A stretch of DNA of 64,000 bases from Daucus carota subsp. sativus. Lineage: Eukaryota > Streptophyta > Magnoliopsida > Apiales > Apiaceae. Made by a program: the position numbers and the translations under genes. The notes beneath the pieces were generated by a model. It was not told the DNA's origin and ran no database searches. It worked only from the letters and a program-made list of their open reading frames with translations. The stretch covers positions 2,198,501 through 2,262,500 of the forward strand of contig NC_030387.2 in NCBI RefSeq assembly GCF_001625215.2, read 5' to 3'. Below, in pieces: positions 16,728 to 52,287 of this stretch (position 1 is its first letter; every line of letters begins with the position of its first letter).

Positions 16728-16770
<43 letters not shown>
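16720..16770. repeat. (TA)n microsatellite
   Basis: About 25 uninterrupted TA units. It marks the end of the block shared by copies 1 and 3; copy 1 has a shorter TA run at 1889-1901. Confidence 0.9.
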
Positions 16771-16773
<3 letters not shown>

Positions 16774-17995: not shown

Positions 17996-17996
17996 T

Positions 17997-18112
17997 AAGC
18001 CGGGGGTCTTCACGGAAACAGCCTCTCTGCTTTAATGGCAGGGGCAAGGCTGCGTACATCTTACCCTCCTCAGACCCTGCTCTAAGCGGGATATACTGAG
18101 TATGTATGGTTT
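17997..18112 (+). mobile_element. SINE-like remnant, Au-type body
   Basis: The run GGAAACAGCCTCTCTGC, GCAGGGGCAAGGCTGCGTAC, then CAGACCCTGCTCTAAGCGGG resembles the body of plant Au-type SINEs. The tRNA-like head is missing, so it is 5' truncated. It lies just before the hAT transposase relic. Confidence 0.5.
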
Positions 18113-18179
18113 GGTATTCTAAATTAAACTACCTAATCAATTAGGAGGACACTAATCTGTATAATTTCTTGTTACTGCA

Positions 18180-20225
18180 GTTGGGGAAAAAAATTTATGT
18201 GAGTTGTTGGAGTTTTGGTTCGTTGATTTGCTAATGGATAGATATTTTGCTCGAACTACGGTTGAATCAAGTGAAAAGAGAGCCAGAATTGATAGTAATG
18301 TGGCATCTGATGATGTTGTTAGTGATCCAGCTTTGCGCAAATCCATCAATGATTATGAGCCTTTTGTTTTTGGTGTTATCTTTTCGGAAATCAGGCGTTT
18401 ACAAAAAATGGATTTCGAAATTGGAAGAAGGCAATAGAAAAGTTCAGAGATCATATAGTAAATGAAGGAAGTATACAAAACAATGCTAAGACATTATATC
18501 TTGGTTTCAAAGATCAGAGGCAAAGTGTGACGAGAAAGTTGAGAATGAGAAATGAGGTATTGGGGGCTGCCTACTGTATGCGCTTAACAACAAGTTTGGA
18601 TGTTGCCAGATTGCTTCTTGGATTAGGATTGGCTTTTCGTGGAAATGACGAATCTGCAATGTCAATACGGAGGGGTAATTTTCTTGAAATACTCACCTGG
18701 TATAGCTTGCATAATGTTGATGTTAGAAATGTTAATAAAGAAAATACACCTGCTAATCATCAACTTGCATCTCCTGATATTCAAAAACAAATTATTAGTG
18801 CTTGTGCATCTGAGACAACGAAAGCTATCATTTCTGATATTGGAGAGAAGTAGTTTGCTTTATTACTTGACGAGGCACGTGATAACTCGATTAAAGAGCA
18901 AATGGCTGTTGTCATAAGATACGCAAATAATAGTGGGGAAGTTTTAGAGCGATTTGTTGGAGTTGTTCATGTCAAAGATACTATTGCAGTTTCTTTAAAA
19001 AGTGCCATTGATGATTTCTTTTCTAAACAAGAACTGTCAATCTCAAAAGTCAGGGGTCAAGGGTACGGCGGAGCTTCAAACATGGGGGGAGAGCTTGATG
19101 AACTAAAGACTTTGATTTTAAATGAGAATCCATATGCTAGGTACGTGCATTGCTTTGCCCATCAGCTCCAATTAGTTGTCGTAGCTGTAGCAGAAGGAAA
19201 TCAATTTGTGAGTGACTTTTTTGATTACATGTCTTTGGTTACTGATGTAGTTGGTGATTCTTGTAAAAGAAAGGATGAACTTCGACAAAAACAACATGAA
19301 GTTATGGTTGAGCAGCTAGAGACCAGACATGTTAATTACTACTGGTTGAGGGTTGAATCAGGAGACTAGTTTAACTCGGCCAGGTGATACTCGCTGGGGA
19401 TCACACTATAAAACCATAATCCGTCTTCTCTCTATGTGGTCTTCAGTTACTAATGTTCTTACAAATATATATGAAGATGGGAGTGAGAGGAAGAGTAGCG
19501 GAAAGGTAGTTGGCCTGCTTGATAAAATGGAAAAACATGAGTTCGTTTTTATTGCACATTTGATGAAAGTAGTATTGGGCATAACAAATGGTTTATCACA
19601 GTTCTTGTAACAAAAAGATCAGAATATTATTGGAGCTAAGAATTTGGTTGCAAATGTTAAAAGACAATTACAAGATTTTAGAGATAACATGTGGGATGAA
19701 CTCCTTGAAGAAGTTTCTGTTTTTTGCTCAAGAGACAATATTGTTCTTCCTGATATGGAAGAAAATGTGTCTGGTCGCTTTCGTTCCAAACAAGCTACAA
19801 CATATTATCATCATTTTAGAGTTGGAATTTTTTGTCAGGTAGTTGATCGTGTTGGGCAAGAGATGGTGAATCGCTTCTCAGATTCAAGTACATAATTGCT
19901 AATGTGTATAGCATGTCTTGATCCTAAAAGTTTGTTCTCAAACTTTAGTCTTTCTAAAGTACTTCGCTTAGCAGAATTGTACCCATTGGAATTTTCATCA
20001 TCCCATTTAATGGAGCTTAAGGAGGAATTAAAGACCTAGATTTCTGAAATGAGGATGAACGACATATTTTCTAAGTTGCAAAATATCGGAGATCTTGCAA
20101 AAAATATGGTTGAAATGGGTTATCATAGAATTTTTCCGCTGATATATCTTTTGATTGAGTTCATTTTATTTCTGCCGGTTGCAACTGCTACAGTGGAACG
20201 AGCCTTTTCTGCCATGAATATAATC
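18180..20225 (+). pseudogene. hAT transposase relic (zf-MYM/DUF4371 type)
   Basis: Pieces in several frames, in order, match plant hAT transposases of the zinc-finger MYM-type/DUF4371 family: NDYEPFVFGV (about 18340), RRGNFLEILTWY (18665), DEARDNSIKEQMAVVIRY (18865), CFAHQLQLVVVAVA (19150), TRWGSHYKTI (19390) and the dimerisation-domain words PVATATVERAFSAM (20175). At least five in-frame stops or shifts separate them (for example after DIGEK at 18853, after SQFL at 19610 and after RFSDSST at 19895). The N-terminal zinc finger and the end of the dimerisation domain are missing. The right end runs into MITE sequence. Not functional. Confidence 0.85.
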
Positions 20226-20515
20226 ATTTCACACATATTTATTGTGTTGACTTCTTATTGTAGTATTAGCCTTTTGCTCATTTCACACATTTTAAGAAGT
20301 ATTAAATGGTTGTTTCTTTTTCCATCTTTGCCCATATTTATTGTGTTGACTTCTTATTGTAGTATTAGCTAGTGGTATATTGGAATAATAAATATGAGAG
20401 GGTAAAGATGGAAGATGGTTGATAAACATGCATTGAAAAGAGAGAAGCTCAACTATTTTGGGACAAATTTTTTTCCCAAAAGGCTCATCTAATTTGGGAT
20501 GGAGGGAGTATTAGT
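20226..20515. repeat. MITE-like sequence with an internal direct repeat
   Basis: ATATTTATTGTGTTGACTTC followed by TTATTGTAGTATTAGC occurs twice, about 100 bp apart (near 20237 and 20336). The right end, GGGATGGAGGGAGTA at about 20498-20512, looks like a Stowaway terminus with its TA. The left end is not clear. Confidence 0.5.
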
Positions 20516-21009
20516 TATCAATTTCAGTTTAACATATGATATAAATTTTATTAGAGAAAATATATTAGATAAAATAATATTTAACAATATACCACGTTGT
20601 GCTAATGCAAAAATTATGAATTATGGAACGATGGTAAATGAGAAGTCGTAATATATGTGTGTATATGTATGTATAATTATTATAAAATTAATATTATCTT
20701 CTTTAATGAAATAGGAATGATTTAGAAAAAATTATTCGTTTGAATTTTATAAGCTTTCATGCTTGAATCGCTAACTTCATGTATTTACAATTTCGATTTT
20801 CTCATAAATAAATTATTGTGCATGAGTGCGAGTTGTTGAAAATGACAAAAATACAGAGAAAAGTAAAATTCATGGGACTTAAAAGAAAGATCCATTAGCT
20901 TCTTTTCTCTGCATTTTAATGTTGTAACAATGTTTTAATCATGCAATAAATATGGTCCCCTAACTGGATAAACAAGCCACCATTAAGGGATTATAGGCTA
21001 ATCAGAAAC
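20516..21009. other. EXPB copy 4 3' flank
   Basis: Matches 3' flanks of copies 2 and 3 (ATATCACATTGTGC-type words, CTTCATGTATTT). No gene seen. Confidence 0.5.
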
Positions 21010-21980
21010 TCAAAAATTGGTATTTGAAACATATTTTGCCCCAGCAGCCCAATTCGCTGGAACTGCGTTAACAACTTCAATAGATTTTCCGGATGAGGTA
21101 GTAATTCTGAAGGAAAGTGGGCCTTGAGTTGAAGGGTTGATGTTAGCACTCCATGTTGCACCCCAGGATTGTTGCATTGGAATCCAGTCAGAGTTTGCAG
21201 GTTTGAGCTGCATAGAGCCAATGTCACCGTCTCCATTGATGCTTTCAATTGCACAAGCAAAATAGTTTGGATTGATATGTTGGTCGATTTTGAACGCAAT
21301 GTTTGCACCTTGATAGTTGCATGGCACCCTGGAAATTAAACACAGTAAAAGATCAGAAAACCTGATGAAACAGGTACAAATTGATGGAAATTGTACTTTT
21401 TAGTACCTTCTGAATTGGATATCAACTTGCCCTAGTTGGCGGAGATTATTTTCCTGTCCAGGTTTAGCCATTGCCCCGAAAGCATGGCCACTCAAGTCGA
21501 AATGGAATGGGACATTGTTACAGGCTCCAGGACATTCATCTGTGATGGTCACAGTGATTGGGTGGCCCGAGCATTGTTCAGCTGAACATTGCACCTGAAA
21601 ACACTGACCACAGCCATGTCCTTTGAGGAAGATCTTGGCATTTCCGGCAGATATCATGCTTGAGAATGGAGGTTGTGCGACATCTGTGTCAAATCCGCAG
21701 GCTCCTCCTATATTCATATCATAATTAATAAATAATCGTGGCAAAAAAAAATAAAAATCAAGGGGCCTCACAAATATGTCGATGTTTAAAAATATAGTTA
21801 TATTACAAAATTATTGAAATTGAGTTTATTACCACTTCCAGGACCATCAGGGGGTCCATACCATGTAGCCAGAGCAGGTGTAAACCCCTGCCCAAAGCTC
21901 AGGGAAATCTGCATAAAAATTACTGATAAATTGATCACTAGAATAGAAATAGGTATATCATTTTTAAGATTAAGGGCCAT
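21010..21980 (-). CDS. Beta-expansin copy 4, intact, lacking intron 2
   Basis: Exons 21980-21833, 21707-21407 and 21328-21010 join to a 255-aa protein. It has a signal peptide (first ~35 residues, hydrophobic SILVINLSVIFMQ), then GGACGF, GCGQCFQVQC, TDECPGACN and the HFDLSG motif of the double-psi barrel, then the C-terminal wall-binding domain with NYFACAIES and SWGATWSAN. It acts in the cell wall. The middle exon is exactly the sum of exons 2 and 3 of the other copies (113 + 188 nt): the 70-95-bp intron seen elsewhere between CFQ and VQC is absent without loss of a base. No break is visible. TATA-like TATATATA lies near 22111. Length is typical for EXPB. Confidence 0.93.
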
Positions 21981-22316
21981 TGTTTTATGTATCCACTTAA
22001 TTTATTACTACGCTTGAGTTGCGAAATGAGTAAGAACAGCCAAACTCAAGTGGAGCGATGAATCGGAAATGTGATATTGGATGATGAACTTTGCATGCAA
22101 ATATGAATGATATATATAGAGTTCATTTCGTTAAAAAGTAAATGCATACAGTTACCACTTTTTAGGATCATGCTAGTTGTATTAATTAGAAGTAGTTTGC
22201 TTGCTATGAATCTGGATTTTGGTAGGGGATAAGTGGTTACAATGAATGCGGTATATATAGGAGAGATTTACCGTAATTAATGAAGGGATTTTTTGTTTAT
22301 ATATGTACCTCGGATA
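21981..22316 (-). promoter_or_regulatory. EXPB copy 4 promoter region
   Basis: Minus-strand TATA-like CTATATATATC near 22109-22120, about 130 bp before the ATG, followed towards the gene by TTTGCATGCAAA (near 22090-22102), a palindrome with an RY-type CATGCA core. The same arrangement is kept in copies 2 and 5. Confidence 0.45.
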
Positions 22317-23029
22317 AAGCCTGGATCGGATATCCGATCTGATTCAATCTGATCCGTGGTTAAATAAATGGATACAACACTTATTAAAAAAATCCGATCC
22401 GTTAATAATTTGATCCGATAATAATCTGGTAGGATGGATATTGATATGATCAAATCCGATCTGTTAATGATCCGGTCCGATCCACGCTTAACTATATTTT
22501 ATATTGTATTGTTTTATATTATATTATATATATTATATTAATATATCACATACAAAAAAAATTCTAAAAATACAAGACAAAACCCTAGCTAAGTATAATG
22601 TTAAACAATTTATTTATTATTTTTCTATTTACTTAACACATACTATGGGGAAGGTTTTATGAGAATATCCAACAAAGTTTTTCAGTTGCATCTTTGTTAC
22701 TAACAAGAAACTATAGACTTTATTTTACTGATTTATTAGTTCATTTTTGTACTTGTTAAGTTAAAATTCATGAATTAATATAGTTAAAAAATATGACTTC
22801 GTTTCTTTATGGAAGGTTAATACATTGTTCACGGTGCAAAAATATATTTCATAAATTTTAGTGGATCGGATCTCCGATCCGATTATCCACGATCCAAGTG
22901 GACTGGACATGGATTGACTTGTAGAATATCCGACTAATTAATGATCTGATCTGAATCCGATTAAATTAAATGGATAAAGATATGGATTTAACAAGATCCG
23001 ATCCAAATCCGATCCGTTTACGGACCTAT
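22317..23029. mobile_element. hAT-type MITE, ATCCGATCC family
   Basis: A 713-bp element. The right end on the opposite strand is ATAGGTCCGTAAACGGATCGG; the left end is AAGCCTGGATCGGATATCC with a short internal loss. Flanked by 8-bp target duplications differing at one base (CTCGGATA 22309-22316; CACGGATA 23030-23037). Both ends are packed with GATCCGAT words. Non-coding. Same family as 44062-44944. Confidence 0.75.
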
Positions 23030-23690
23030 CACGGATAGAATAGTATGAACGGTAATTAAATTTCAAAGATGAGTGCATCAAGTACTATAATTGAAATTTT
23101 TAATTTAAAAATGATGCAAAATTATTAATAAAAAGTTATAAATGTTAATCTCCAACCATATATACATTTCTCTTTATAACATTTGTTGAAAGTAGAGAAC
23201 TTATCTAAACACCAGACTTTTTCATGTGTATTGAACTCGAATTTTAATAGATTTTATATTATTTAAGAATTTTAATAAATTGTATCAGATTATTATTTTA
23301 TGCTGATTCTAGATAAAATGTCGCAGAGTTGATTAGAGTCTTTAAGATTTAGACACAATGTTTCAAACTCTCATAATTTTGGTGGGATTTAAAATATTTT
23401 AAATTACACCAAAACATCCCACAAAATCCATCATTTCATGAAGTTCGAAATAATATATCAAAATTTGTATACCACAAGATTTTAATGGATTTTAAATAAT
23501 CCCAATTAAATATCATTGGATTTTTAAGTATAATTTAAAATCTTGATTGAATATCACAAGATTTTATAAAAATAATTTAATAAATAAAAAATAAGGTTTC
23601 ATCATTTTTATCCTAAAAAATCAATGAAAATTAATCATAATATCTCAATTCGTTCTACTGTACAATCATATTTTCCTAAAGTGAGTCTGC
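23030..23690. other. Upstream flank of EXPB copy 4, with an inverted copy of the AT-rich repeat
   Basis: No gene. About 23215-23590 is the reverse complement of the AT-rich repeat found upstream of the other copies (words such as CCACCAAAATTAT and GATTTTAATGGATTT in mirror order). Confidence 0.5.
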
Positions 23691-23842: not shown

Positions 23843-24130
23843 TGTTAAACAGTGAATAACTTCTTTAGTTAATAAATAAAATACAGGTTTATATTCATTA
23901 AATATAAACCTTTAACAATAAAGGCTGTAAACCAATATAAATAACAGCCACCAATATAAGTGGTGGTATAGGTATAAGTTTACTATATTTATATTCAACC
24001 CAACAATATAAATAGGATTGTATAATTTGTAATCAATTAAGTAGAAGAGTTATATCTTTTATAAACACATTTTATTCTCTTTTATCTTCTCTGCACTATC
24101 AGCACAATTATCTGAAATATCTAGCTAACA
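23843..24130 (+). repeat. 5' LTR of the Copia element
   Basis: 288 bp beginning TG and ending CA, with the 5-bp duplication AACCT directly before it. Confidence 0.95.
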
Positions 24131-24132
24131 TT

Positions 24133-24144
24133 TGGTATCAGAGC
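24133..24144 (+). other. Primer binding site of the Copia element
   Basis: TGGTATCAGAGC, complementary to the 3' end of plant initiator methionine tRNA, two bases after the LTR. Confidence 0.93.
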
Positions 24145-25379
24145 TCTAAGTTCAAAAGGGCCAATATCTTATTTCCACAGAAAAATAAAATAATGGCGTA
24201 TTCTGGTTCAAATCAGCAACAAATCATTCCCATTTTTAATGGAGAAAACTATAAATTCTGGAACATTAAAATGAAGGTTGTTCTCCAAGCAACCCAACAC
24301 TTATGGAATGTCGTGGAAAATGGCATACCTAAAGCTGGGGAGACTGCCACCACATCTACAGCAACATCAACACAGATTGATTGGCCACAAAGAGATGCAG
24401 AAGCACTAGCCAAAATTCATCTTGCAGTCACCGATACAATATTTCCAAGAATCATGAATGCAACTTCAGCAAAACAAGCACGGGACATCTTGAAAGCTGA
24501 ATTTGAAGGAAACGAGAAAACGACAAAAATAAGGCTTCAGAATTTGAGACGAGAATTTGAGAACTTGAAAATGAAAGAAGGAGAAACAATCAAAGATTAC
24601 TCTTCCAGAGTAATTAAGCTGGTTAATGAACTGAAGTCAAATGGAGAAAGTATATCTGACCAACGGGTTATAGAAAAAATGTTGGTTAGTTTATCTGAAA
24701 AATTTGATACAGTTGTAACTGTGATAGAAGAATCGAAAGATCTCACACAGTTAAGTATCTCCGAGTTGATAGTATCCCTACAAATTCATGAAGACAGAAT
24801 GTCTCGAAGAAATGAAGTATCTGGAGAAGGAGCTTTCCAATCTAAGCATAAAATATCTCCTTTTAAACGGAATAATAAAGGATGCACATCAAATCAATGT
24901 AGTCCTATCTATACCAAAAATGCTGAGAAAAAGAGTAAATTTCCTCCATGTTCTATATGCAAGAAGACAAACCATGCAGAAAAGAATTGCTGGCACAAAG
25001 GAAAACGCCAGTGCAATTATTGCAAAAAATTCAATCATCATGAAAATGAGTGTAGACTTAAAAACCAACAAGCAGGAAGATCCGAAACAATTGATGATGA
25101 AAATCATCTATTCTATGCTTGTCAGAATGGAAATAGTCAGAAGGATGCTTGGCTCATTGACAGTGGTTGCACAAACCATATGACCAAACATTCACATGTT
25201 TTCACCAAAATAGACTCATCTATTAAGATACCGGTAATAATGGGCAATGGAGAAATGGTGAAGTCTGAAGGTAAAGGTACTGTTGCCGTGAAAACAAAGA
25301 AAAGAACATATCAAATTAATGATGTTCTTTATGTTCCAAATTTGGATCAAAATTTACTTAGTGTCCACTACTAGAAAAA

Positions 25380-26426
25380 GTGGATTTAACATCACTCATT
25401 TAACATCGGTTGCAAAAGCCACCGATGTTAAATACTTTTATTACATCATAAATATTAGAAACGATGTTAAACAGAATTAACGACATCGGTTACCAAAATG
25501 ACCGTTGTCTAAACTAAATTTTAAAAACAAAAAAAACACGCGCTGCTAATATCTCTACTTCTTTTAACAAAACATCTCCCCCGCCTTTAACATATTTTCA
25601 TTCCCCCCCAATTTTAACACTGTCTCCTCCCTCTCGACACTCCCTCTCCTCTCTCTCGACACTCCCTCTGTCTCACTCTCGACATTCACTCTCTCTCACT
25701 ATCTACAATCTCTTTGCTACCATATCCCCAAATATACCTCTAATCTTAGAACCCTAACTTATCTCACCCAATTCTCAACCACCCAAACCCGATTCCAAAT
25801 TACCCGAACCCTAGGTCAAATTTTTTTGCTCGATTCGTACTTTGTATGCGTGTTGTAGCTGCAGTGGAAGCATAAATCAGTCGGTTCTCTCCCAGATTAG
25901 TAAGATTTAACCTAGTGTTAGTTGATTCGTACTTTATATGCTTGTTTTGTCTTTCAAATTTTAATAGCTCTGTGCTATTTTAACAGATTGAATCAAGGAG
26001 CTTTGTGTTCTTGCGGATTTATTGTAAGTGAGTAGTTTTATATAAATGCATGTTAGTGTTTGTGTTCCTATAGCTCTGTGTTCTTGCCAATGTTAGGTAT
26101 TGTCTGCTTTAACATGTAGTTTACATTTTAATTTTTGAAAAATGTTGGTGTTTGACGGATTCTTGTAAGTGGGTCAGTATAAATATGATATGTATGATGT
26201 TAGTTTTGCAGTTTGGGTGTTAGAAAAATGAACTAGTTGTATGATAATGGCTAATGCTTGATTTATCTTTGTTTTAGAAAGTGTTTTTGCTCTGTGTTTG
26301 ATGGGTTGTTGTAAGTGGGTCTAAATAAATATGATAAGTAATGCTTCAGTTGTATTAATTAGGAAATTTGTAATAAATCTGTTTCTAATATGTTATATGA
26401 CAATCAGGTAGGTTGATTTACGAAAT
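25380..26426 (+). promoter_or_regulatory. CACTA subterminal repeats and TNP2 leader
   Basis: 25380-25510 holds inverted and direct copies of ACATCGGTT / AACCGATGT. 25600-25800 is a CTCT-rich stretch typical of plant 5' leaders. 25850-26420 is intron-like, with T-rich runs and candidate GT-AG sites, and ends just before the TNP2 ATG. Initiation site not determinable by eye. Confidence 0.5.
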
Positions 26427-29400
26427 ATGGACAAGTCTTGGATTTCAAAAGATAGGGATTCTTTAGAATATGAAGTGGGGGTTGAATCTTTCTTGATATT
26501 TGCTGAAGAAAATGCTAAGAATCGTAATAAAATCCCTTGCCCCTGTGCACGTTGTGGGAATTTTAAGAAGCATTCTGTTAAAATAATTAGAGGTCATTTA
26601 TATGAAAAAGGATTTAGTTTGGGGTATGTTGATTGGATATGGCACGGAGAAAAGTGTCCAACTAGCGAGTCAGCACCAAAGTCTTCTTTTGGTAGTAATT
26701 CAGTCGAAATTCCTACATCCGAAAATGTTGACATATGTGAAGCAGCGTATGAGAGGAGTGAATATATTGATGATTCGGGTGAGTTTAGTAGGTTTGTCGC
26801 TGATGCAGAACAACCGTTATACGAGGGTAGCGACAACAGCAAATTAGAGTCGATGTTGAAATTACATAATTGGAAATCTAGGTTTGGCATAAGCGATAGT
26901 GCCTTCACCGATCTTCTTTCTTCTGTAGGGTCTTTACTGCCTAAAGACCATGTGTTACCCGAGAATGCGTATGAAGCAAAAAAAACCCTAACTGATTTAG
27001 GACTTGAGTATATTAAGTTTCACGCGTGTCCAAATGATTGTATACTGTACAGGGGTTTAAATATTGATGCGTCAGAGTGCCCCAAGTGCCATCTGTCTCG
27101 TTGGAAGGTTGGAAAGGACGGTAAACCTAGGATTAATGTTCCAGCCAATGTAATGTGGTATTTTCCGATAATTCCTCGATTTAAACGGATGTTTAAATCT
27201 CCTGCCACAGCTGAACTTATGAGTTGGCATTCGAACAAGCGAATTCAAGATGGCCAAATGCGTCATCCAGCCGACTCTCCTTCTTGGAGGAATATTGACT
27301 ATAGGTGGCCTGAATTTGGTAGTGAGTCGAGAAACATTCGCTTAGCATTAGCTGCTGATGGAATAAACCCGCACAACAATGGCCTTACCAATAGGTACAC
27401 TTGCTGGCCAGTAGTTTTGGTAACTTATAACCTTCCTCCATGGTTATGCATGAAGAGGAAGTTTATGATGCTAACTATACTAGTTTCAGGTCCACATGAA
27501 CCGGGTAATAACATTGACGTGTATTTGCAACCAATGATTGACGATCTGAAAAAGCTTTGGGAAGAAGGTGAACGGAATGTATACGATGCGTATACAAAGT
27601 CTTATTTCACATTAAGAGCTGTTTTAATGTGGACCATAAACGACTTTCCAGCGTATGGGAATTTATCGGGCTGTGTGAATAAAGGTTATATGGCGTGTCC
27701 AATTTGTGGAGATGACACAGTAGCTAAACATTTAAAATATAGCAGAAAACTGTGTTACCAAGGACATCGAAGATATTTGGCACCGCATCATCCCTATAGG
27801 AGGAGTAAGGCAGCTTTTAATGGAGAACAAGACTTTGGATGCGCACGTCAACCCCAATCTGGTGAAGAAGTGCTAAGGCTGCAGGAGCAGATTGAATTTA
27901 CATTTGGGAAGGAGGTGAAAAAAGCAAAAAAAGTGGATTGTCCATGGAAGAAGAAGTCAATTTTCTTCGAGTTGGAGTATTGGAAATTTCATCACGTACG
28001 TCATTGTCTCGATGTTATGCACATTGAGAAAAATGTGTGTGATAATTTAATCGGGACATTGTTGAATCTTCCATTCAAGAGTAAAGATAGCGTGGACTCT
28101 CGTCGTGATATGATTGAAATGGGTGTGAGGCCTGACCTGGCTCCAGAAGTAGGAGAAAAGCGAACCTACCTCCCCCCTGCCCCTTATACTTTGTCAAGAG
28201 CAGAAAAAAGAACGATGTTAGGGTCATTATCGCATATGAAACTTCCTTATGGCCATTCATCGAACATAAAAAATTGTGTTTCCATGTCTGATTTAAAGAT
28301 TTATGGGTTGAAATCCCATGATTGTCACACCCTTCTCCAGCAGCTTCTCCCGATTTCAATTCGTTCGATTCTTCCAAAAAATGTTCGGGTCAGCATAATC
28401 AGACTTTGTTTCTTCTTCAACAGTTTATGTAATAAAGTTGTTGATATATCCAAACTCGATAAGCTACAGTCAGATTTGGTGTTGACTTTGTGTGAGTTAG
28501 AAAAAATCTTCCCGCCTTCATTTTTTGATGTAATGATACACTTAACGGTCCACTTGGTTAGAGAATTACGCTTATGTGGACCTGTATTCTATAGATGGAT
28601 GTTCCCGTTTGAAAGGTTCAACAAAGTGTTAAAGAGTTATGTTCGGAACCGTTACTATCCAGAGGGGTGTATAGCAGAAAGCTACCTAGGAGAAGAGTCG
28701 GTTGAGTTTTGCTCAGAATTTGTTAGGCAAAGCTTCATGACTGCTGGTCTTCCAAAGGATAAGGGCAAACTTTCTGGGCCATTATCGGGTGTAATGGTAA
28801 AGTCTGTGGATGAGAAAGAAAGAGACGAGGCACATTTACATGTCCTGCAGAACAACTCTGAAGTGTATCCTTATATCATGTAAGCTTATCTTTTTTCTGT
28901 TGTCAATTCAAGTCTTGATAAACAATTTTTTCGATTACATAACATATGCATTATCTCAGGAAGCATAAGGAGTTACTAGAACAGCAATACCAAGGCAAAA
29001 AAAAGAGTGTTCAATGGCTAATTGGAGAGCACAACCGTTTATTTGCTAATTGGTTTCAGAAAAGGGTTAGTTTCCCTTTTACTTATTTTGCTGCATCGTT
29101 AGATATACGTGTCTAGTTATTGATTGGTTTTAAAATATGCGCGCAGGTTAGTACTGAAATGGTAGAGAATCCTGAAAATATTTCCGAAACGATTAGATGG
29201 TTGGCAGGCAAACCATCGTTTTCGGTTTTAAGCTATGATGGTTATTTGATTGATGGGGTACGATACTTCACAAAGGAACGTGATGATGCAAGAGTTGTTC
29301 AGAATAGCGGGGTTTCTTTAGTTGCCAGTACAGTACAAGTGTCCAGTGCTAAGGACATGAATCCCGTGGAGTGTGATATGACATTCTACGGGATGATCGA

Positions 29401-29794
29401 AGAGATTTGGGAATTAGATTACTATGCTTTTAAAGCTCCACTTTTCTTATGTAAATGGGCAGACAGTGAGAGAGGTATCAAAGTTGATGATTTAGGCTTC
29501 ACTCTTGTAGATTTCAGTCGGCTTGGTCACAAGAACGATAAGTATGTGTCTGTTGACCACGTGAAACAAGTCTTCTATATTGAAGACCCTGTCGATGCTA
29601 GGTGGTCTGTTGCATTGAACTCTACAAAGGCAGACTATCAAGAGTTGTACAATGATGATGATTTGGGAGACACGACTCTTGAAAATCCTCCATTCTGCAT
29701 AGATATTCCTATGTGTGATCATGACGAAGAACCTGCCGAGCCTAGTGTTAGCAATAAAAGGCAAAATGTTGAGGGGATTTGGATTAAAAAATGA
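26427..29794 (+). CDS. TNP2-type CACTA transposase, 3 exons, 1068 aa, intact
   Basis: Catalyses excision and insertion of the CACTA element in the nucleus. Exons 26427-28879, 28960-29065 and 29147-29794 join in frame. Domain order: transposase-associated zinc domain at residues 1-75 (PCPCARCGN), zinc ribbon-like CPNDCILYRG...CPKC near 202-222, TNP2 core about 220-440 including AADGINPH (309) and IDVYLQP (363), then LDVMHIEKN (532), a DUF4218-like stretch about 620-740 (FPPSFFDVMIHL, RWMFPFERF), SYVRNRYYPEG, and a DUF4216-like exon 3 (FLCKWADSERG). Asp309, Asp363 and Glu533 are plausible catalytic acids by family comparison; this is inference. The ATG at 26427 begins the conserved MDKSWI. Full-length for the family. 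Confidence 0.93.
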
Positions 29795-30052
29795 TGATAT
29801 ATATTAATTTAGAACTAATTTGCATTCCCATTTTGTGATTTGTTTTAATCTGGATGCTTCTTCATTGTAATTGTAATTTGAATTTTGTTTTTCCCATTTT
29901 GTGATTTGTTTTAATCTGCATTCCTAGTTAATATTGTAGCTTCTTCATTTAATTGTAATTTGAATTTGCTTCTTCATTGTAATCCTAATTGTAATTGTAA
30001 TTGCAACTTATAATTGTATACATGTGCTAATGTGTATATTACAGATTCAAGA
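29795..30052 (+). other. Spacer between the two CACTA genes
   Basis: T/A-rich, with a partial direct repeat of CCCATTTTGTGATTTGTTTT (29828 and 29893) and several GTAATTGTAATT words. It probably holds the TNP2 3' end and the leader of the next gene; an acceptor-like ATTACAG ends at 30044. Confidence 0.5.
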
Positions 30053-33000
30053 ATGACAATGAAGAAGCAAAAAGTTGTTAAAGCGTCTAAAAAGGATAAA
30101 AACAATGGTGAAGTGGAGAAGCAATTGTTAGGTGCAAATGAGGTGCCAGAATTTGAAGCTTCAGACCATCAAGATAAAGTGTTGAAAGCTGCAGACTCTC
30201 AAGGTACAGAGCCTAAAAGTGCAGAGGTTCCAGAGGGGACGGTTACTAGTACTGAAACAGCAAAATTAAGGACGTCCGGAGGTAAGCGTAGCATATGTGC
30301 TATGCACAAAGTTGTTGTTAAAAAGGCCCAAGGGAAAAAAATTAAAATTAGATACAATGAGCGCGGGGATCCAGTTGGAGAAACTAGGCACACCTTGCAG
30401 TCCTACATAGGTATGTTGGGTAGGACTATGGTGCCAATTGACATCCCTAGCTGGCCAAAAGTAGATGCAGAAATGAAAGAGAGGTTATGGAATGATGTTC
30501 AGGTAAATTATATCTACCGCTAAATATTACCTTCTTTATCTCATTTTTATTTCTTTTGAATTTTATAGTAGTTGCCTATCTGTTGCAGGCAGCCTTTAAA
30601 GTGGCACCAGAAAGTCGATCTTTAGTGCTGAAGTCTGCAGGGGCAAAATGGAGACAGTTCAAGGCTACATTAACTGCTAACCATGTGATGCCATATGTTG
30701 GCAAGAAGAAAAAACTTAGCAAGCCTCCAAAGAAGTATGCATTTGTCGGTAAAGATTCTTGGAGAGAGTTTGTTGCCCAGCGGACTAGTAAGGAATGGAT
30801 GGTATGAATTTCACCTTAATTTCACCTTAATTTCACCTTTAATTTCACCTTAATTTCACTTTTAATGAATTTTATCATAATTTGTTATGTTTTATGTTTT
30901 TGGTTGTAGTCTATTCATAATAAGCAAAGTGATAGAGTCAAGAAGCGAAAATATCAGCATCGCCTTTCAAGGAAGGGCTACATCGGCCTTCATGAAGAAG
31001 AAGTAAGATTTCACCTTCTTAATTTTTTTTAGAATTGATCAATATTCTGTAATTAAATACTCCACATATTTTAAACAGGTAAAGAAAGGCAATTTTGAGC
31101 CCGGAGAAATTCCTGATCGTGCGATTCTGTGGAAAAAGGCTCGAGTTCGGAAGGATCTTCAAGTCGATAAAGATGTGACTGAGATAAACAAAAAAATTGT
31201 AAGATTAATATCCTCATTATTTAGTATAACTGGGGGTCGAGGAAAATATAATTAAATGCAAATTATAATAAACATTGTAAATTGTAATTAACATTGTAAT
31301 TAAAATTATAAACAAATTGTTGATATATATATTATAATATGTTGACAGGATAATTTGCTAGAAAAGAAAAAAATGGGTGAATTAGAAATGAGTGGGAGCT
31401 GGGATGTGTTGTCTCTGGCTTTGGAAACTCCAGAGCACACAGGAAGGGTTCGAGGGGTGGGGGGTTCTGTCACCCCAAAAGCATTTTTCAATTTGCCAAA
31501 GACAAGGAATCGAGTCACCAAAGCTGAATTAATGGCTCGTGATCGGAAAAGGGATGAGGAGATGGATAAAACAAAGAAAGAACTTGCTGAGCTAAGGGCG
31601 CTAATTACTGCAAACACTCTGCACTCACCAAATTTGTCGGACAAAGGTAGTTTCCAGGCGCAGGTTGAAGGTGAAGGTTTAGGCATGAAGATGAAACCAG
31701 CAGCTGCGAAGGAATTGGTGGTCGATGAGGGTGAGGATTGTGTTGCTATTGATCCTCCACCACCATCTGAGAAAAAGGTAAAACAAACTCTGTCTCTCAT
31801 GTCAGCTTAATCTTATGAGCTTAATCTGCACCTGTAATTTTGCTTAATATTATGAGTTTAGGGTGCCCGGTCGTGTGAGCTTGCTGTGGGAAGCGTCGAC
31901 AACAAAGTTGCATTCGGCATGGCTTTTGAAGGTGAAGACATGAATAACAATATACATGGAAAGCCTATGCAAGCAGGATGCCTTCGCGTGTCGGTGGATG
32001 GAAGCATCGATGGCGATGCACTGGTTCCGGTGCCTGTACCTGGTGAAATAGAGAAAGTCCACCAAGCTGTTGGTTCACATGTAGCTTGGCCTAGGGACTT
32101 GATCATATTTCCAACTGCTATGGTATGCAAATTATTATCTTTTTAATTTTTCACTTCTTTGTGCTTATGTAAAGTATGTTTTGTTATATATGTATTTTAA
32201 AATGCATTGTGTAGAAAAAGAAAACGCAAGTCGCGCCAAAGGGTGATGCTCAACTGTTAAAGATCGTCAGAGCAAAATTTAAAAATGTGGAGCTAAATGA
32301 GAAGGTGCCAAGTCGCTTCAGGTTGTTGTTTAAACATGCATCAATCATGAAGGAGTCTGGCATGTCGATTGATATTCCATGTGATTATCCAGTCTTTGGC
32401 GCTGACAAAAGAATATATGTACTATCGGAAAATATCATCGCCTTATGTACATTTGGGATGATTGGTCAAGCTGCAATAGCAACATACATGTTGTAAGTAA
32501 TTCTTTTAAAATGCTTTTTACAAGTATAGTAAATTTTTGAATATTGCCAGCATAATATGTACTTACAAAAAAAATCTTATTTTTTCGTAGGTACTTGCAT
32601 ACTCTGATTCAGGAGAGAAATTTGGGGGATTCCTTTAGTTTTATTGACCCGTCGGCCTCGTTTAATTTGAATCAGGATTTTGAAGGCTTAATTGTTGGCA
32701 GGCTGAAAGAGAGCCCGGGTCGCATTTTCTTCATGCCACATAATCAAAAGTAAGTGTTTTCAAATAAAAATTATTTAAAAACTATGATTATTCTGATTCT
32801 CGCTTAATTGTAACTTTTTTAAATATATTGATCAGTGTTCATTGGATTTTGGTTGCAATCTGGGAAAGTGACATATACCTTCTTAATCCACTGCCGCAAC
32901 GGCCACATTATCCAGCATTGGAAAAAGCTTTACTAAGGTATTAATATAATAAATAAACTCAAATTACTGGATTCTCGGGTTTAAAAATTTATTAATTTTC

Positions 33001-33436
33001 TTGCAGCGCTGTTAAATCATTCAATGCTCAAACAGGAAGGGGAAATCTTATTCCCAAAATACATAATCTTGCTGTAAGTACTACTTTCTTGGCTTTGGTG
33101 ATAATGCTTATCGCCCTGTTTTAATCTTATTTAGCTGATCGATAACAATAATATTGAAAATAGGGATCACCTAAACAACCGGGTTCTACGGAATGTGGTT
33201 ACGTTGTGATGCGTTATATGCGAGATATAATTCATGATGAGGACATGTACTCTTTTACTACCAAGGTAATAACATTCTGTGAACTTATTCATATATACCA
33301 ACTGATGAGGACATCCATTTTCTGATTTGGACTTGTATATTTGTAGTGGTCATCGAAGAATCGGACAAGTTACATGATGGACGTACTTGATGAGGTGCGT
33401 CTGGAGACTCTCACCCACATTGAAAGTTTCATGTGA
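30053..33436 (+). CDS. TNP1/En-Spm accessory protein with C-terminal Ulp1-type protease, 12 exons, 787 aa
   Basis: Exons 30053-30502, 30589-30801, 30910-31002, 31079-31198, 31349-31777, 31862-32122, 32215-32492, 32591-32749, 32836-32937, 33007-33073, 33164-33265 and 33347-33436; every junction is GT-AG and in phase. N-terminal third is basic (MKKQKVVKASKKDK). Middle matches plant Ptta/En-Spm TNP1-like proteins (LETPEHTGRVRGVG, FFNLPKTRNRVT, then a coiled-coil-like RDRKRDEEMDKTKKELAEL). C-terminal ~250 residues look like a Ulp1 (C48) SUMO-protease fold: VHWILVAIW gives His, LLNPL has Asn where Asp is usual, STECGYVV gives Cys. Likely binds the subterminal repeats; the protease role is unknown. 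An upstream in-frame ATG exists at 30014. Confidence 0.85.
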
Positions 33437-34488
33437 TCGCGGCCGCAAGTAATCAAGTCATGGATGTGTCTTTTTTGGTTGTTGCTGTGTTTCCAAACAG
33501 TTGGTAGATATATTATGAGAATTGCTAGCTCTTTTGTTCATTACTTTTGTTTCATGAGTTTGGTGATCATGCCAAAATAGTTGGTTTGAAATTATGTCAA
33601 AACATATGGATTACGAATTTGGTATCTATGAATCTTGTTTTTATTATTGGATCATATTTTGGTAATTTTCTGGTTGTTTGGTTGTTTGGTATGAAGCTGG
33701 TACACAAAAATCTCATTTGAGATTTTTGGGAAAAATGTATAAACAAATACCTCATGCCAAAAAAGTTAAAAGTAAGACATCATTTTTTTATAAAAAGATG
33801 TTGTTAATTCCCCTATAAAACATCATTTTTCATACAAAAACGTTGTAAATAAATATCTTTTAAATCAGTAGAGGAAATAAAACCGATGTAACTTTCATAC
33901 GAACTCAAATAACAGGGCGATGTAAATTAAACTCAATTAAATCGGAATTATTTTAGAAACCGATGTTATAAACTACTTTTTACATCACCCCTTTCACAGA
34001 TACGATGTAAATACACCTCATTTACATCACCCTTCTCACAGACACGATGTAACACATCTCATTTACATCACCTCCTTTTACAGACACGATGTAATAAACC
34101 ACAATTAAATCAGGCCAGGGAAGAAACCGATGTAATATAGCTCATTTACATCACTTCTTACACGGACACGATGTAAGTAATATATTTTACATCATTTATT
34201 TATCAATATTCGATGTCTTTATCTTCATAAGTCCTACATGGAATGTGTTTAACATGTTATACTACTCAAACTATATAGAATTCCTAAAAGAAATGATGCA
34301 ATAACTGTAAAAAAGCAATGTAAATACATCGTTTTTCTAAAAAAAATTAATGTCTGAGAGAATATAAGACATCGGTTTAAAACCGATGTCTAAACTTGGG
34401 ACCTTTTACATCGGCGGCATATACATCGCTCTGTTTTTTCTCAGACATCGGTTTTTAGCCGATGTCTATTAGCTTTTTTCTAGTAGTG
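33437..34488 (+). repeat. CACTA right subterminal zone with ACATCG repeats
   Basis: After a 3' UTR-like 33437-33760, the stretch 33770-34470 contains many copies of CGATGTAA, TTTACATCA and ACATCGGTTTTTAGCCGATG, direct and inverted. Such arrays are the known binding sites of the accessory protein in Spm-type elements. Confidence 0.8.
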
Positions 34489-37349
34489 GTCCCACAAATG
34501 ATGCAAAATGGATATTCAATTCATTTTGAAGGAGACACATGTGATATACATGATCCAAAGGGAAATAACATCGTTCGTGTCAAAATGCAGCAGAAATGTT
34601 TTCCCATTCAGTGGCAATATAAAGCTGAAGAAAAATCTATGCAGGCCAAAGCAAATGAGCTAACATCGCTCTGGCACAAACGCTACGGGCACTGCAATTC
34701 AAAAAGGTTAAAGTTGCTTTCAGATAAAAATATGGTCAAAGAAATTCCTCTAATCTCTGAAACTACTGATGTATGTGATGCATGTCAGTTGGGAAAAATG
34801 ACAAGAAAGCCTCTCCCTTCTAGTCAAGCATGGAGAACAACAAAGAGATTAGAGTTAATACATACAGATGTATGTGGCCCCATGAGGACTCTTTCACTCG
34901 AAAATAGCAGGTATTTCATCTTATTTATTGATGATTACACCCGCATGACGTGGGTATACTTCATGAAAGAAAAATCAGAAGTATTTAAAATTTTCAATAA
35001 ATTCAAGAATTATGTCGAGAAGAAAAGCGGTTGTCAAATCAAAAATCTAAGAAGTGATAATGGAACGGAATATACCTCATCAGAATTTAACAAGTTCTGT
35101 GAAATGGAAGGTATACATCGTCAACTCACTGTTCCTTATACACCACAACAGAATGGTGTCTGTGAAAGGAAGAACAGAACTGTGATGGAGATGGCGAGGA
35201 CAATGCTAAAAGAAAAAGAATTGCCAAATAAGTTTTGGGCAGAAGCTGTCTATACTGCAGTGTATCTTCAGAATCGGTTATCAACAAAGGCCGTTAAGGA
35301 ACAAACACCTCTTGAAGCATGGTCAGGATGTAAACCATCGGTAAATCACTTGAGAATATTCGGATGCATATGCATGCTACATCCACGTGCCTAGTCAGAA
35401 GCGGCAAAAACTAGATGAGAAAGCCGAAAAAGGAATTTTCCTCGGTTATAGCTCACAGTCCAAGGGTTATCGAGTGTACAATCCACAATCCAATAAATTT
35501 CAAATCAGCAGAGATGTTGTATTTGTTGAGAATGCTTCTTGGAATTGGGAGCATAATGACATTAATGAAAAGTATGTTGTGATGGAAACATTTAATCCTA
35601 AACCTGCAGCACCAGTTGTAGTTGGTCAGCATGAGCAACATTTCCAGGAGGAGTCTGATAGTAGCTCAGACACAGACTCGCCACGATATGAATATGACAG
35701 TTTTTCTGATTCACCTCCCTTAAAAACAAGAAGAATTTCAGATTTATATGAAAATACTGAAAGATTATCCGATCTAGATCCCGAGCAAGTTCAATTCTGT
35801 TAATTACTTTGTCTCGGATGAACCAAATAATTATGAGCAGGCATCTCAACACAAAGAATGGAGAGCTGCAATGAAAGAAGAAATATCTATGATTGAAAAG
35901 AACCATACATGGGTGTTAGTTGATAAACCACCGCACAAGGACACTATTGGTGTAAAGTGGGTATTCAAAATCAATCAAAACCCAGATGGTTCTGTTCAAA
36001 AATACAAAGCAAGATTAGTCGTGAAAGGTTATTCCCAACAATTTGGAGTAGATTATAATGAGACCTTTGCACCTGTTTCAAGACAGGATACAATCAGAAC
36101 AATTCTTGCTCTTGCAGCACATCGTAAGTGGAATATTTACCAGCTCGATGTAAAATCTGCTTTCCTAAATGGATTCCTCGAAGAAGAAATCTATATAGAG
36201 CAACCACCAGGATTCATAATAAAAGGAAAGGAGGACAAAGTCTTGAGATTAAAAAAGGCTTTGTATGGACTGAAGCAAGCTCCACGAGCATGGTATAGCC
36301 GAATCGATAAATATTTTCATCAACAAGGATTTAAGAAAAGTCCGAATGAAGCAACCTTATACATTAAACTGGAAGGACCTGACATACTTATTCTTTCCCT
36401 TTATGTTGATGACCTTATTATTACCAGAAGTAACCTTTCAATGATTACTAAATTTAAGGAACAGATGATGAAGATGTTTGAAATGACAGACCTCGGATTA
36501 ATGAACTATTTTTTAGGAATGGAGATTGATCAAAGAAAAGAAGGCATCTTCATTTGTCAGAAAAGATATGCAAGTAACATCTTGAAGAAGTTTAAGATGG
36601 ATAAATGTAATCCAATTTCAACTCCTCTGGCTCAAAATGACAAATTGAGCAAAGATGATAACTCAGAAGAAGCGGATGTTAAGCGTTATAGAAGTATAAT
36701 CGGTAGTTTACTATATTTAACTGCTACCAGACCAGATTTAATGTTTGCTACAAGTATATTATCCAGATTTATGCAAAACCCAAGGGAAGTACATATGAAA
36801 GCTGTGAAAAGGGTACTACGCTATGTAAATGGTACTACAGACTTTGGAATATGGTTCAAACCTACTGAAAATCCCGAACTGATTAGATATTCAGACAGTG
36901 ATTGGGCGGGATCAGTAGATGATATGAAAAGCACCTCTGGATACGCATTTTCACTTGGTAATTGTGTATTCACATGGCTAAGCCAAAAACAGGATACAAT
37001 TGCACAATCGACAGCCGAAGCAGAGTATATTGCAGCATGTTCGGCAGTAAATCAAGCGATATGGCTTAGAAGGATTCTATCAGAACTGGGTGAAAAACAA
37101 AAGTCAGCAACTAAGATTTATTGCGACAGCACATCGGCAATTGCTATTGCAAAGAACCCGGTTCAACATAGAAAGACAAAGCATATCAAGATAAAATACC
37201 ACTTTGTTCGAGAAGCTGAAAATAAAAGAAAAATCAGCCTAGTTCACTGCAGTACAGAAGATCAACTAGCTGATATTTTTACAAAGCCACTTCCAAAAGC
37301 AAAGTTTGAATCTCTAAGAAATAAGCTTGGCATACAGAAGAAGTTCTTC

Positions 37350-37358
37350 AAGGAGGAG
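37350..37358 (+). other. Polypurine tract of the Copia element
   Basis: AAGGAGGAG directly before the 3' LTR, the primer for plus-strand synthesis in LTR elements. Confidence 0.85.
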
Positions 37359-37646
37359 TGTTAAACAGTGAATAACTTCTTTAGTGAATAAATAAAATAC
37401 AGGTTTATATTCATTAAATATAAAGCTTTAACAATAAAGGCTGTAAACCAATATAAATAACAGCCACCAATATAAGTGGTGGTATAGGTATAAGTTTACT
37501 ATATTTATATTCAACCCAACAATATAAATAGGATTGTATAATTTGTAATCAATTAAGTAGAAGAGTTATATCTTTTATAAACACATTTTATTCTCTTTTA
37601 TCTTCTCTGCACTATCAGCACAATTATCTGAAATATCTAGCTAACA
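37359..37646 (+). repeat. 3' LTR of the Copia element
   Basis: 288 bp, two differences from the 5' LTR, followed by the second AACCT target copy. Confidence 0.95.
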
Positions 37647-42055: not shown

Positions 42056-42606
42056 CAACCAATCAAAACATACATGTAGTTAATCTCCTTATCGGTCAAA
42101 AAACCCCAAGCTAGTACAAAATTATAATTGTTGTCTAGCGTCGCGATTGTCGTGTTAGTACTCTGAAATTTGTCAAGAATCTTGAAGGATAATGGTTAGC
42201 GCGATTATCTTGTAGGGATGAGGTACTTTAGAAGGGGACACTGGTGCATACGAGCCTGTTTATCTTGGGTGGATTAGGTTTTGGTTTTAACTTTTTTAAT
42301 TAAAATGGAGCTTTAATTTGGAACCTTTGATTAGACTATCATCCAATGGTTAAGACTTAAGTCTCTAATGACTCCAATTATATATGTCCTCAAGGAGCCC
42401 AACTCTTCTGTAATATATATGTTGCTAATGCAAAAGATATAAATTATGAATATTTATATATATATCATGGGACTTCAAACTTAAAAGAAAGATCAATCAG
42501 CTTCATCTTTTTTTACTGAATTTAATAATGTCGTAACAATGTTTTAATCGTCCCATAAATATGGGATCCTAACTGGACATTAGGGGATCATAAGCTAATC
42601 AGAAAC
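42056..42606. other. EXPB copy 5 3' flank
   Basis: 42300-42420 resembles the terminus of the elements at 45752-47003 (GTCTCTAATGACTCC, GAGCCCAACTC). 42480-42606 is the 3' flank shared with copy 2. No gene seen. Confidence 0.45.
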
Positions 42607-43645
42607 TCAAAAATTGGCATTTGAAATATATCTTGCCCCCTTAACCCATTTCGCTGGAACTGCGTTATCAACTTCAATAGATTTCCCGGACGAGGTAGTA
42701 ATTCTGAAGGAGAGTGGGCCTTGAGTTGCACGGTTAATGTTAGCACTCCATGTTGCACCCCAGGATTGTTTCATTGGAATCCAGCCAGAATTTGCGGGTT
42801 TGAGCTGCATAGAGCCAATGTCACCGTCTCCATTGATGCTTTCAACTGCACACGCAAAATAGTTGGGATTGATACCTTTGTCAATTTTGAACGCGATTTT
42901 TGCACCCTGATAATTGCATGGCACCCTGGAAAAACATTAAAAAGATTAGACAAAACTGAAAAAATAATTACAAATTAAAAGATACTGTGGTTTTCGATAC
43001 CTTCTGAATTGGATATCGACTCGTCCTCGTTGGCGGAGATTATTTTCTTGTCCAGGTTTAGCCATTGCCCCGAAAGCATGTCCACTCAAGTCGAAATGAA
43101 ATGGTACATCGTCACAATGTCCAGGACATTCATCTGTGATGGTTACAGTGATTGGTTTGCCCGAGCATAGGTCAGCTGAGCATTGCATCTGCATATATAG
43201 TTAATTTGTCCATGTCAATATATATATTAATAATAATGCTGGATTCGATATAAGAAGAAGAAATCGATGTTAGTTTACCTGAAAACACTGACCACAGCCA
43301 TGTCCTTTGAGGAAGATCTTGGCATTTCCGGCAGATATCATGCCTGAGTATGGAGGTTGTCCGACATCTGTGTCAAATCCGCAAGCTCCTCCTATATTCA
43401 TATCATAATTAATAAAAAAAACAAAGGGTTTCACACAAATATGTCGATGTTTAAAAACATAGTGTTATTACGAAATTATTAAAATTCAGTTTATTACCAC
43501 TTCCAGGGCCATTAGCAGGTCCATACCATGTAGCCAAACCAGGTGCAAAACCCTGTCCAAAGCTCAGGGAAATCTGCATAAAAATTACTGATAAGTTGAT
43601 CAGTAGAATAGAAATAGGTATATCATATTTGAGATTAAAGGCCAT
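42607..43645 (-). CDS. Beta-expansin copy 5, intact, four exons, 255 aa
   Basis: Exons 43645-43498, 43391-43279, 43188-43001 and 42925-42607, lengths 148, 113, 188 and 319 nt. The product has a signal peptide (MAFNLKYD then SILLINLSVIFMQ), the six-cysteine double-psi barrel with GGACGF, GCGQC and HFDLSG, and the C-terminal wall-binding domain with NYFACAVES and SWGATWSAN. Secreted; loosens cell walls. This is the intact sister of broken copy 2, with the same last-exon translation. The start codon is the one conserved in all copies. It is probably the main working gene of its pair. EXPB rather than EXPA is indicated by the TWYG start and the ICxR-free GGACGF context; confidence in the family is high. 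Confidence 0.94.
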
Positions 43646-43790
43646 TGTTTTATGTATCCGATCCACTTATAACTAAGCTTGAGTTGCAAAATGAGTAAAA
43701 ACAGTCAAACTCAAGTGGAGCGATGAATTGGTATTGGATGATGAAATTTGCATGCAAATATGAATGATATATATAGAGTTTATTTGGTTA
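43646..43790 (-). promoter_or_regulatory. EXPB copy 5 promoter
   Basis: Minus-strand TATA-like CTATATATATC at about 43766-43777, then TTTGCATGCAAA (43748-43759), about 120 and 105 bp before the ATG. Upstream lie a minisatellite and an 883-bp hAT MITE, which may affect expression; that is inference. Confidence 0.45.
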
Positions 43791-43794
43791 ACAA

Positions 43795-44061
43795 GTAAAT
43801 GCACACAGTTACCACTTTTAAGGAATTTTAGGATTATGCTAATAGTATTAATTAATTGGAATTCTATCCAGTTACCATATTTTAGGAATTTTAGGATTTT
43901 TATATTGGGTAATTGGAATTTTAGGATTATGCAGTTACCATATTTTAGGAATTTTAGGATTATGCTAGTAGTATTAATTAATTAAGATTTTATGCAGTTA
44001 CCACATTTTAGGAATTTTAGGATTTTTATATTGAGTAATTGGAATTTTAGGATTATGCAGT
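43795..44061. repeat. Minisatellite of AATTTTAGGATT units, upstream of EXPB copy 5
   Basis: Composite unit GCAGTTACCACATTTTAGG plus AATTTTAGGATT in about five irregular copies, the shorter partner of the array upstream of copy 2. Confidence 0.75.
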
Positions 44062-44944
44062 TAGGCATCGGATTTGGATCGGATCTAGCTAATTCCATAT
44101 CCTAATCCATTTAAATTTATCGGATTCGGATCGGATCGGATCAGGAGTCGGATATTTTACAAGTCAATCCATATCCGGTCCACTCGGATCATGGATAATC
44201 AGATCGGAGCCCCGATCCACTAAAAATTATGAAATATATTTTTTCAACGTGAACGATGTTTTAACTTCCATACAAAAAAAGTAATATTTTCTAGTTATAT
44301 TAATTCATAAACTTTAGCGTAATAAGTAAAAAAAAACTAATAAAGCAGTATTTAATAAAAACTTTGTAGGTTGTTCCTATAAAAACTTCAACACAGAATT
44401 TATCAACTAAATAGAATAATAATAAATAAGTTGCTTAATACTTTTGGAGGAAGCAAATTATGATTTGCTCCTCTATTAATAAGGATTAAAATCGATAAAT
44501 ATGTTTTAAATACAGAACCAGGTGATTGAGGAGGTTTTAAGTGGAAGAGTTAGCTCTTGTGTTTATACTCACTCTACATTAAAAAGAGTGATTATTAGAT
44601 TAACCGGATAACAAGAGTGAGAGCCATGTCAAGAATTAGGAGCGGCTGATTGATTATAAGAAAATATGATTTAGGATTTTGTCTTGTATCTTTAGAAATT
44701 TTTTATTTTATATATAATATATTAATAATAATATATTATATTATAATACATTATAAATTATATAATATAGTTAAGCATGAATGGGGTCGGATCGTTAACA
44801 AATCGGATTTGACCATATCCATATCAATTTTTTATCGGATCGGATTATTAGCAGATCGGATTGTTTTGATAAGGATCCATAGCCATTTATTTAACCACGG
44901 ATCGGATCGGGTCGGATCGGATATCCGATCCATTTACAGGCCTA
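44062..44944. mobile_element. hAT-type MITE, ATCCGATCC family (883 bp)
   Basis: The right end on the opposite strand is TAGGCCTGTAAATGGATCGG; the left end is TAGGCATCGGATTTGGATCGG with a short internal loss. 8-bp flanks TATGCAGT (44054-44061) and TACGCACT (44945-44952) match at six positions, a decayed duplication. Ends carry dense GGATCGGAT words. It interrupts the minisatellite. Non-coding; the open frame at 44650-45015 is chance. Confidence 0.75.
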
Positions 44945-44952
44945 TACGCACT

Positions 44953-45750
44953 TACCACATTTTAGTAATTTATATTTTTATCTATGAAATCCAAGTGTAT
45001 TCAATTCAGATTTGAAAAAATATATGAGAATATTGAGATATTCAATTACGATTTTAAATTATGGGGCAAAAACTGGTTCTATTTAAACATGATTTTAAAT
45101 TATATTTTAAAATTGGATGATATTCAATTGGGATATTTAAAATCTATCAAATGTTGACTGATTTTTTTTAGACTTCATAAAATGATAATTTTGTGAGATT
45201 GTTGAGTGTATTTTAAAATATTTGAAATTCCACCAAAATATATGAGATCTTAAAACATTGTGTTTAAGTCGACTATCATCAACTTTGCAACATTTTATAA
45301 CATAAAATCAAAATCAGATACAATTCATTAAAATCCTTAAACTAAAATCTATTAAAATCTCAATTGAATATCTCATAGAATTAAATTGGTATGGATCTGG
45401 GGATAAGTGGTTACAAATTAATGTGGTAATAATTAACTAGAGATTTAGCATAATTAATGAAAGGACTTTTTGTTTACGTGCCTCGGATAAATAGTATAAA
45501 CGGTATTTAAATTTCAAAGATTAGTGCATCACCAGCTAAATTAAAAATTTTAATTAAAAACATATAAAAATACTAATTAAAAATTATAAGGTTCGCCTCC
45601 AACTATATATACATTTTTATTTGCTACATTTGTTGAAACTACAGAGGTTATCTTATCTGTTACCACCTTTTAGGATAATTGCGTGTCATATTTTATCATA
45701 TATATTAAAATAATATATGCCCAACTCTATGTATTTTTTATATATAGAAA
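44953..45750. other. Distal upstream block of EXPB copy 5
   Basis: Collinear with blocks upstream of copies 1, 2 and 3: AT-rich repeat at about 44975-45390, then the GGATAAGTGGTTACAAAT segment. No gene seen. Confidence 0.55.

Positions 45751-51036: not shown

Positions 51037-52287
<1,251 letters not shown>

Follow-up and report, generated by a model that had tools for sequence, protein, structure and literature searches.

The second gene of a CACTA transposon in the carrot genome, which we call ORF2, is predicted to join a Transposase_24-type half and a C48-type half in one gene plan, and its protease half is, as judged from silent and replacement changes, constrained as a protein on the lineages tested. 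That CACTA elements can carry this pair of domains is already known, from the CACTA-ULPs of 2008 and the CDA Type 4 elements of 2022 as presented in the parts of those reports consulted here; what the carrot sequences appear to add is one exon plan, an asparagine at the position of the active-site aspartate, and purifying selection.

The window, i.e., the whole 64,000-nucleotide stretch of Daucus carota subsp. sativus DNA that was analyzed (NC_030387.2, positions 2,198,501 to 2,262,500), contains the following features, given in window positions.

23843 to 37646, plus strand: Copia-like retrotransposon hosting the CACTA element, with LTRs at 23843-24130 and 37359-37646
25363 to 25365 (left) and 34489 to 34491 (right): target-site duplication GTC, bordering the CACTA element at 25366-34488
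25366 to 34488, plus strand: CACTA (En/Spm) element of 9123 bp, read directly, with terminal inverted repeats CACTACTAGAAAAA and TTTTTCTAGTAGTG
26427 to 29794, plus strand: tnpD transposase gene, three inferred exons (26427-28879, 28960-29065, 29147-29794), 1068 aa, open
30053 to 33436, plus strand: ORF2 (tnpA-like, ULP fusion), 12 inferred exons, 787 aa, open
30751 to 31477, plus strand: region equivalent to the Transposase_24 domain of family C (aa 205-335), placed by alignment transfer of the family C Pfam match
32727 to 33250, plus strand: sub-threshold Peptidase_C48 match, aa 661-753, a weak profile alignment to Ulp1/SENP
33736 to 34488, strand unassigned: 3′ subterminal region containing repeats of the ACATCGG type, which are candidate binding sites
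54375 to 62529, minus strand: a CACTA element of a different family, the second in the window; its TNP2 frame stops prematurely within DUF4218, at 59425

With CACTA termini that form an inverted repeat, a 3-bp target duplication, and a TNP2-type transposase (Transposase_21, E=3.2e-87; the tnpD product also matches DUF4218, Transpos_assoc, and DUF4216 in Pfam), the element belongs to the CACTA superfamily. Its host was labeled Copia-like by eye, from the open frames on either side of the CACTA insertion. Since the host LTRs are mismatched at 2 of 288 positions and the CACTA element is nested inside, the latter is younger than an already young retrotransposon, in agreement with the recent insertion proposed in an earlier reading of this DNA that used the letters alone (the sequence-only reading). 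Long direct and inverted repeats at ~15080-23200 and 42500-45000, mostly ~80-93% identical, flank the nested Copia/CACTA block and probably represent another repeat family. A separate observation concerns the stretch 5′ of tnpD (window ~26353-26356, element position ~988), where five other copies examined carry ~280 to 820 extra bases of varied length that are absent from the window copy.

As the second gene of a CACTA element, ORF2 takes the place of maize En/Spm TNPA; to our knowledge, classical TNPA has no C48 domain. A possible splice acceptor lies within ~20 bases 5′ of the ORF2 start in the window's family (A) and in two related families (C and F), and there is an AG just 5′ of the tnpD start in the window element. 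Together these would fit an En/Spm-like leader that is shared by the two genes and spliced to either of them; Spm is described as producing tnpD and tnpA transcripts that overlap and arise by alternative splicing (PMC8195511, part consulted). The motif ACATCGG is clustered at the element ends, as TNPA binding sites would be, with 11 of its 12 occurrences on both strands falling within the first 300 or the last 753 bp.

Splicing of ORF2, deduced from the DNA sequence, combines the twelve exons into 2364 nt that encode 787 aa plus a stop codon, with zero internal stops and GT-AG borders at 11/11 introns, just as the sequence-only reading had it. Its domain labels, a TNP1/En-Spm domain followed by an Ulp1-like one, held up in part. 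The window protein matches Peptidase_C48 (PF02902) with E=0.0027 and 18.0 bits, i.e., below the cut-off of 20.7, and shows no Pfam match to Transposase_24 (PF03004) at E≤10; the proposed TNP1/En-Spm domain likewise has no Pfam match. In contrast, the ORF2 proteins of families C and D exceed the curated Pfam cut-offs for both Transposase_24 (3.8e-10 and 2.2e-08, respectively) and Peptidase_C48 (1.3e-06 and 1.9e-04), and the Transposase_24 region of the relatives aligns with the window protein. Family F, whose exon 8 is damaged, stays under both cut-offs. With two of three same-plan relatives above both cut-offs, we consider the predicted fusion to be real.

A DNA search of the genome returned at least 74 matches. 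Compared exon by exon, the ORF2 exons occur in the same order in five CACTA families, the window's own (A) plus B, C, D, and F, and C48 exons were also found in twelve further loci. Complete open twelve-exon models were obtained for family C (C3:14592300-14598077) and family D (C9:8107102-8112900), their exon lengths being close to those of the window with the exception of exon 1 of D; the family C protein has 787 aa, and that of D has 846 aa from the first in-frame ATG or 784 aa from the methionine that aligns with the others. Given that the ORF2 proteins of C, D, and F are 52-56% identical to that of the window, the shared order of the exons and their nearly equal lengths exclude chance. In families B, C, and D, ORF2 is preceded by a tnpD tail with 65-73% identity, which identifies these elements as CACTAs too; none was seen near the family F ORF2 in the stretch taken. 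Within the window's own family, we compared ten other ORF2 stretches, including one duplicate pair. Of these, the C1 copy (L039) alone matches the window in having a complete, uninterrupted reading frame through all twelve exons; the tnpD of this copy carries a frameshift. We infer from the exon plan common to both halves in diverged CACTA families that they go back to a single old fusion.

Turning to the protease half, the His and Cys of the sequence-only reading, and its Asn at the usual Asp position, are indeed found in the window protein, at H670 (32840-32842), C735 (33194-33196), and N685 (32885-32887), respectively, and Q729 (33176-33178) completes the tetrad. The Gln and Cys are spaced by six residues, and a profile search of solved structures aligned both of them, together with the His and the Asp/Asn, with Ulp1/SENP chains in a weak match (E=0.12). 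When two genomic C48 stretches were compared by profile, the Gln-Cys pair aligned in both and the His in one, at low probabilities of 31.6 and 28.7 (E of 5e-4 and 6e-4). The window domain is thus like the Ulp1/SENP SUMO proteases over these four positions, yet differs from them in having Asn instead of Asp, and the similarity is weak. While the active-site His, Gln, and Cys are present in the window, C, and D, the canonical Asp is replaced by Asn685 in the window, and on this sequence the domain is named C48-like, not a canonical C48 peptidase.

His and Asn recur in families A, C, D, and F and in 4/4 family-B loci having exon 9; one family-B locus has its Cys replaced by Tyr. Among eight further distinct copies of the window's family with exon 9, Asn was read in frame in seven, the remaining one (L042) being frameshifted there. 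A search for the Gln-Cys exon motif found 97 places, as opposed to 0 in a reversed control; these are sequence matches, which need not each lie in a CACTA gene. Twelve of the 97 were picked for sequence diversity, with Gln and Cys present by construction, and showed Asn in 12/12 and His in 11/12, the His of L054 missing from that frame. By comparison, the best eight Pfam C48 loci of the genome have Asp in 8/8 cases under a pattern that allowed Asp or Asn. With Asn at every locus that has an in-frame exon 9 and Asp at these eight other C48 loci, the Asn is, as far as the sequences tell, a mark of this transposon clade and not the decay of a single copy. Two of the C48 loci with the canonical Asp, L001 and L005, are adjacent on C2 (about 29.80 Mb) and perhaps form a tandem cluster of ULP-like genes.

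The sequence-only reading had taken the full frame in a very young insertion as a sign of selection. This argument falls away, because an open frame is expected in such an insertion without selection; that the protein is under selection is instead evident from other copies. Over the C48 exons (8 to 12), dN/dS between subfamilies is 0.08-0.23, a range that holds for 11 of the 14 pairs compared, all 14 being hand-chosen from a larger number of possible pairs. Values near 1, as expected of drifting copies, were confined to two very recent pairs (0.90 and 1.04), and the remaining pair is saturated. Two unsaturated comparisons illustrate the range, L053-L057 (dS 0.415, ratio 0.128) and B-D (dS 0.651, ratio 0.212). 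In this set, L056 and L063 have stops in exon 7, and the pair L054-C covers exons 9-12 only. From the low ratios between subfamilies, the protease half probably does something for the transposon.

The whole of ORF2 gives a second line of evidence. Changes fixed between subfamilies A1 and A2 number 23 silent to 27 replacement (ratio 0.32), whereas changes private to five broken copies number 31 to 97 (ratio 0.86), a significant difference (Fisher p=0.006). The comparison excludes seven private stops, L043 (a duplicate of L042), and L047, and it uses L045 and L048 for their own exons only. For the C-terminal part of ORF2 alone, fixed versus private changes (6:7 versus 9:25) do not differ significantly (p=0.29). 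Window and C1 copy are separated by six silent and two replacement changes. Copies that are recent or broken show near-neutral drift. Between distant families, the whole-gene silent distance runs from 1.7 to infinite, i.e., near or beyond saturation, so selection is argued here from the closer pairs.

How does the carrot fusion relate to what has been described before? The closest match is the Chenopodium CACTA 'CDA Type 4' (Jozin), which in the part consulted of Belyayev et al. 2022 (PMC8978399) has Transposase_21, DUF4218, and DUF4216 in ORF1 and, in ORF2, Transposase_24 with Peptidase_C48 after it; Vitis vinifera (without TAD) and Citrus (without DUF4216) are listed there as having near-complete sets, and Daucus carota is placed under Type 3. 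A literature search for both domain names led to this paper only. The window element corresponds to this set in part: TAD (taken as Transpos_assoc), Transposase_21, DUF4218, and DUF4216 are present, and for Transposase_24 and Peptidase_C48 it is just the relatives C and D that exceed the cut-offs. The authors of that paper suppose stochastic domain gain. In contrast, the twelve-exon plan, the clade-wide Asn, and the purifying selection in carrot would point to an old, retained fusion and argue against repeated stochastic gain, at least with respect to what the part consulted says. The grapevine families Cactavine-2, -3, -4, -5, and -13 and rice proteins, described as CACTA-ULP by Benjak et al. 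2008 (PMC2528002, part consulted), resemble the window element in combining a ULP domain with Tnp2 in a CACTA; their ULP is described as a transduplicated domain, and neither an exon plan nor a catalytic set or selection is mentioned in the part consulted. Another transposon-borne C48 domain is found in KIU, the Kaonashi ULP-like proteases of non-TIR MULEs (PMC13317346, PMC6117577), which the former review, in the part consulted, links to hypomethylation of related elements. KIU differs from ORF2 in superfamily and partner protein, a distinction drawn from the published descriptions, and the window element is a TIR-bearing CACTA and not a non-TIR MULE. ULP goes unmentioned in the main text of the VANC paper (PMC5735166). 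The parts of the cited literature consulted contain no statement of a twelve-exon plan common to several families, of the Asn, or of a CACTA C48 half under selection, and we do not claim its absence from print.

The second CACTA of the window has an accessory gene with Transposase_24, and neither a search of four pieces nor comparison with the C48 exons returned a C48 match. A stretch of 40 kb thus appears to contain CACTAs of both types, and the protease may not be needed by every CACTA. Elsewhere in the window, a long open frame at 48082-49968 (plus strand) resembles a pentatricopeptide-repeat gene, and ~52060-52290 (minus strand) resembles the coding start of a class III peroxidase, both by eye.

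Our preferred reading, held with slightly less than even confidence, is that ORF2 is a TNPA-type helper that would take its C48-type peptidase, a putative deconjugase, to the transposon ends, and that it is kept by purifying selection. The N-terminal half, with its Transposase_24 region, would be expected to bind the subterminal repeats of the element, as TnpA does (PMC8195511), and the C-terminal half would act as a C48-type cysteine peptidase through the His-Asn-Gln-Cys set. At the ends of the element, the SUMO- or ubiquitin-like deconjugase so delivered would strip modifiers off silencing or transposition proteins. This role would resemble the demethylating, activating one of Spm TnpA, which activates Spm with DNA demethylation (PMC10398659, part consulted). 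It is counted against this role that MULE ULP-like proteins are considered unlikely to act on SUMO in the part consulted of one review (PMC6117577). A bolder version, which we regard as rather unlikely, is that a whole clade of plant CACTAs depends on such a His-Asn-Gln-Cys peptidase of C48 descent, tethered to the transposon ends via TNPA and stripping a ubiquitin-like modifier from silencing complexes, i.e., on a transposon-encoded, sequence-targeted deSUMOylating anti-silencing factor.

A possible though doubtful alternative is that peptidase activity of the C48 domain is needed for transposition itself, maturing the element's own proteins or trimming SUMO from those of tnpD or tnpA, and has no anti-silencing role. 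Active-site residues and selection would be expected equally here, and ORF2 does stay beside the tnpD tail in B, C, and D. However, self-processing at a conserved Gly-Gly found no support: ORF2 has none that is shared by A, C, and D, and the window tnpD is without any Gly-Gly. This mildly disfavors Ulp-like self-cleavage and is only mildly informative, other cleavage rules being possible. The apparent lack of C48 in the second CACTA of the window, itself partly broken, also speaks against a need in transposition.

That the domain is instead a non-catalytic module, which binds ubiquitin-like proteins or DNA and in which Asn for Asp reflects lost catalysis, strikes us as quite improbable. It would agree with the Asn wherever exon 9 was read in frame and with the weak resemblance of the window protein to Pfam and PDB entries. 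Yet A, C, and D all keep His, Gln, and Cys despite an exon 8 identity of just 37-42% among them, and a cysteine peptidase can work with Asn, which fills the equivalent role in papain.

Given that the exons were joined on paper, ORF2 could also be two adjacent genes, one for a TNPA and one for a ULP protein; the exon phases run through the junction in A, C, and D to give complete open models, and PMC8978399, in the part consulted, predicts both domains inside ORF2, so that we reject this as very unlikely. A captured host fragment, carried passively and open merely because the insertion is recent, would suit the young insertion and the transduplication of gene fragments by CACTA elements (PMC2528002, part consulted), but is hardly credible against one exon plan in five families and the dN/dS of the C48 exons between subfamilies, which rules against it.

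Returning to the tethered deconjugase that we favor, its interest lies in how the protease half has been treated by evolution. Earlier descriptions treat ULP domains in transposons as fragments that were captured or as stochastic gains, whereas the protease half of this CACTA fusion keeps a catalytic signature of its own and is under purifying selection in the subfamily pairs tested. A link between ubiquitin-like modifiers and the control of plant transposons would thereby become testable via one protein and one residue, Cys735.
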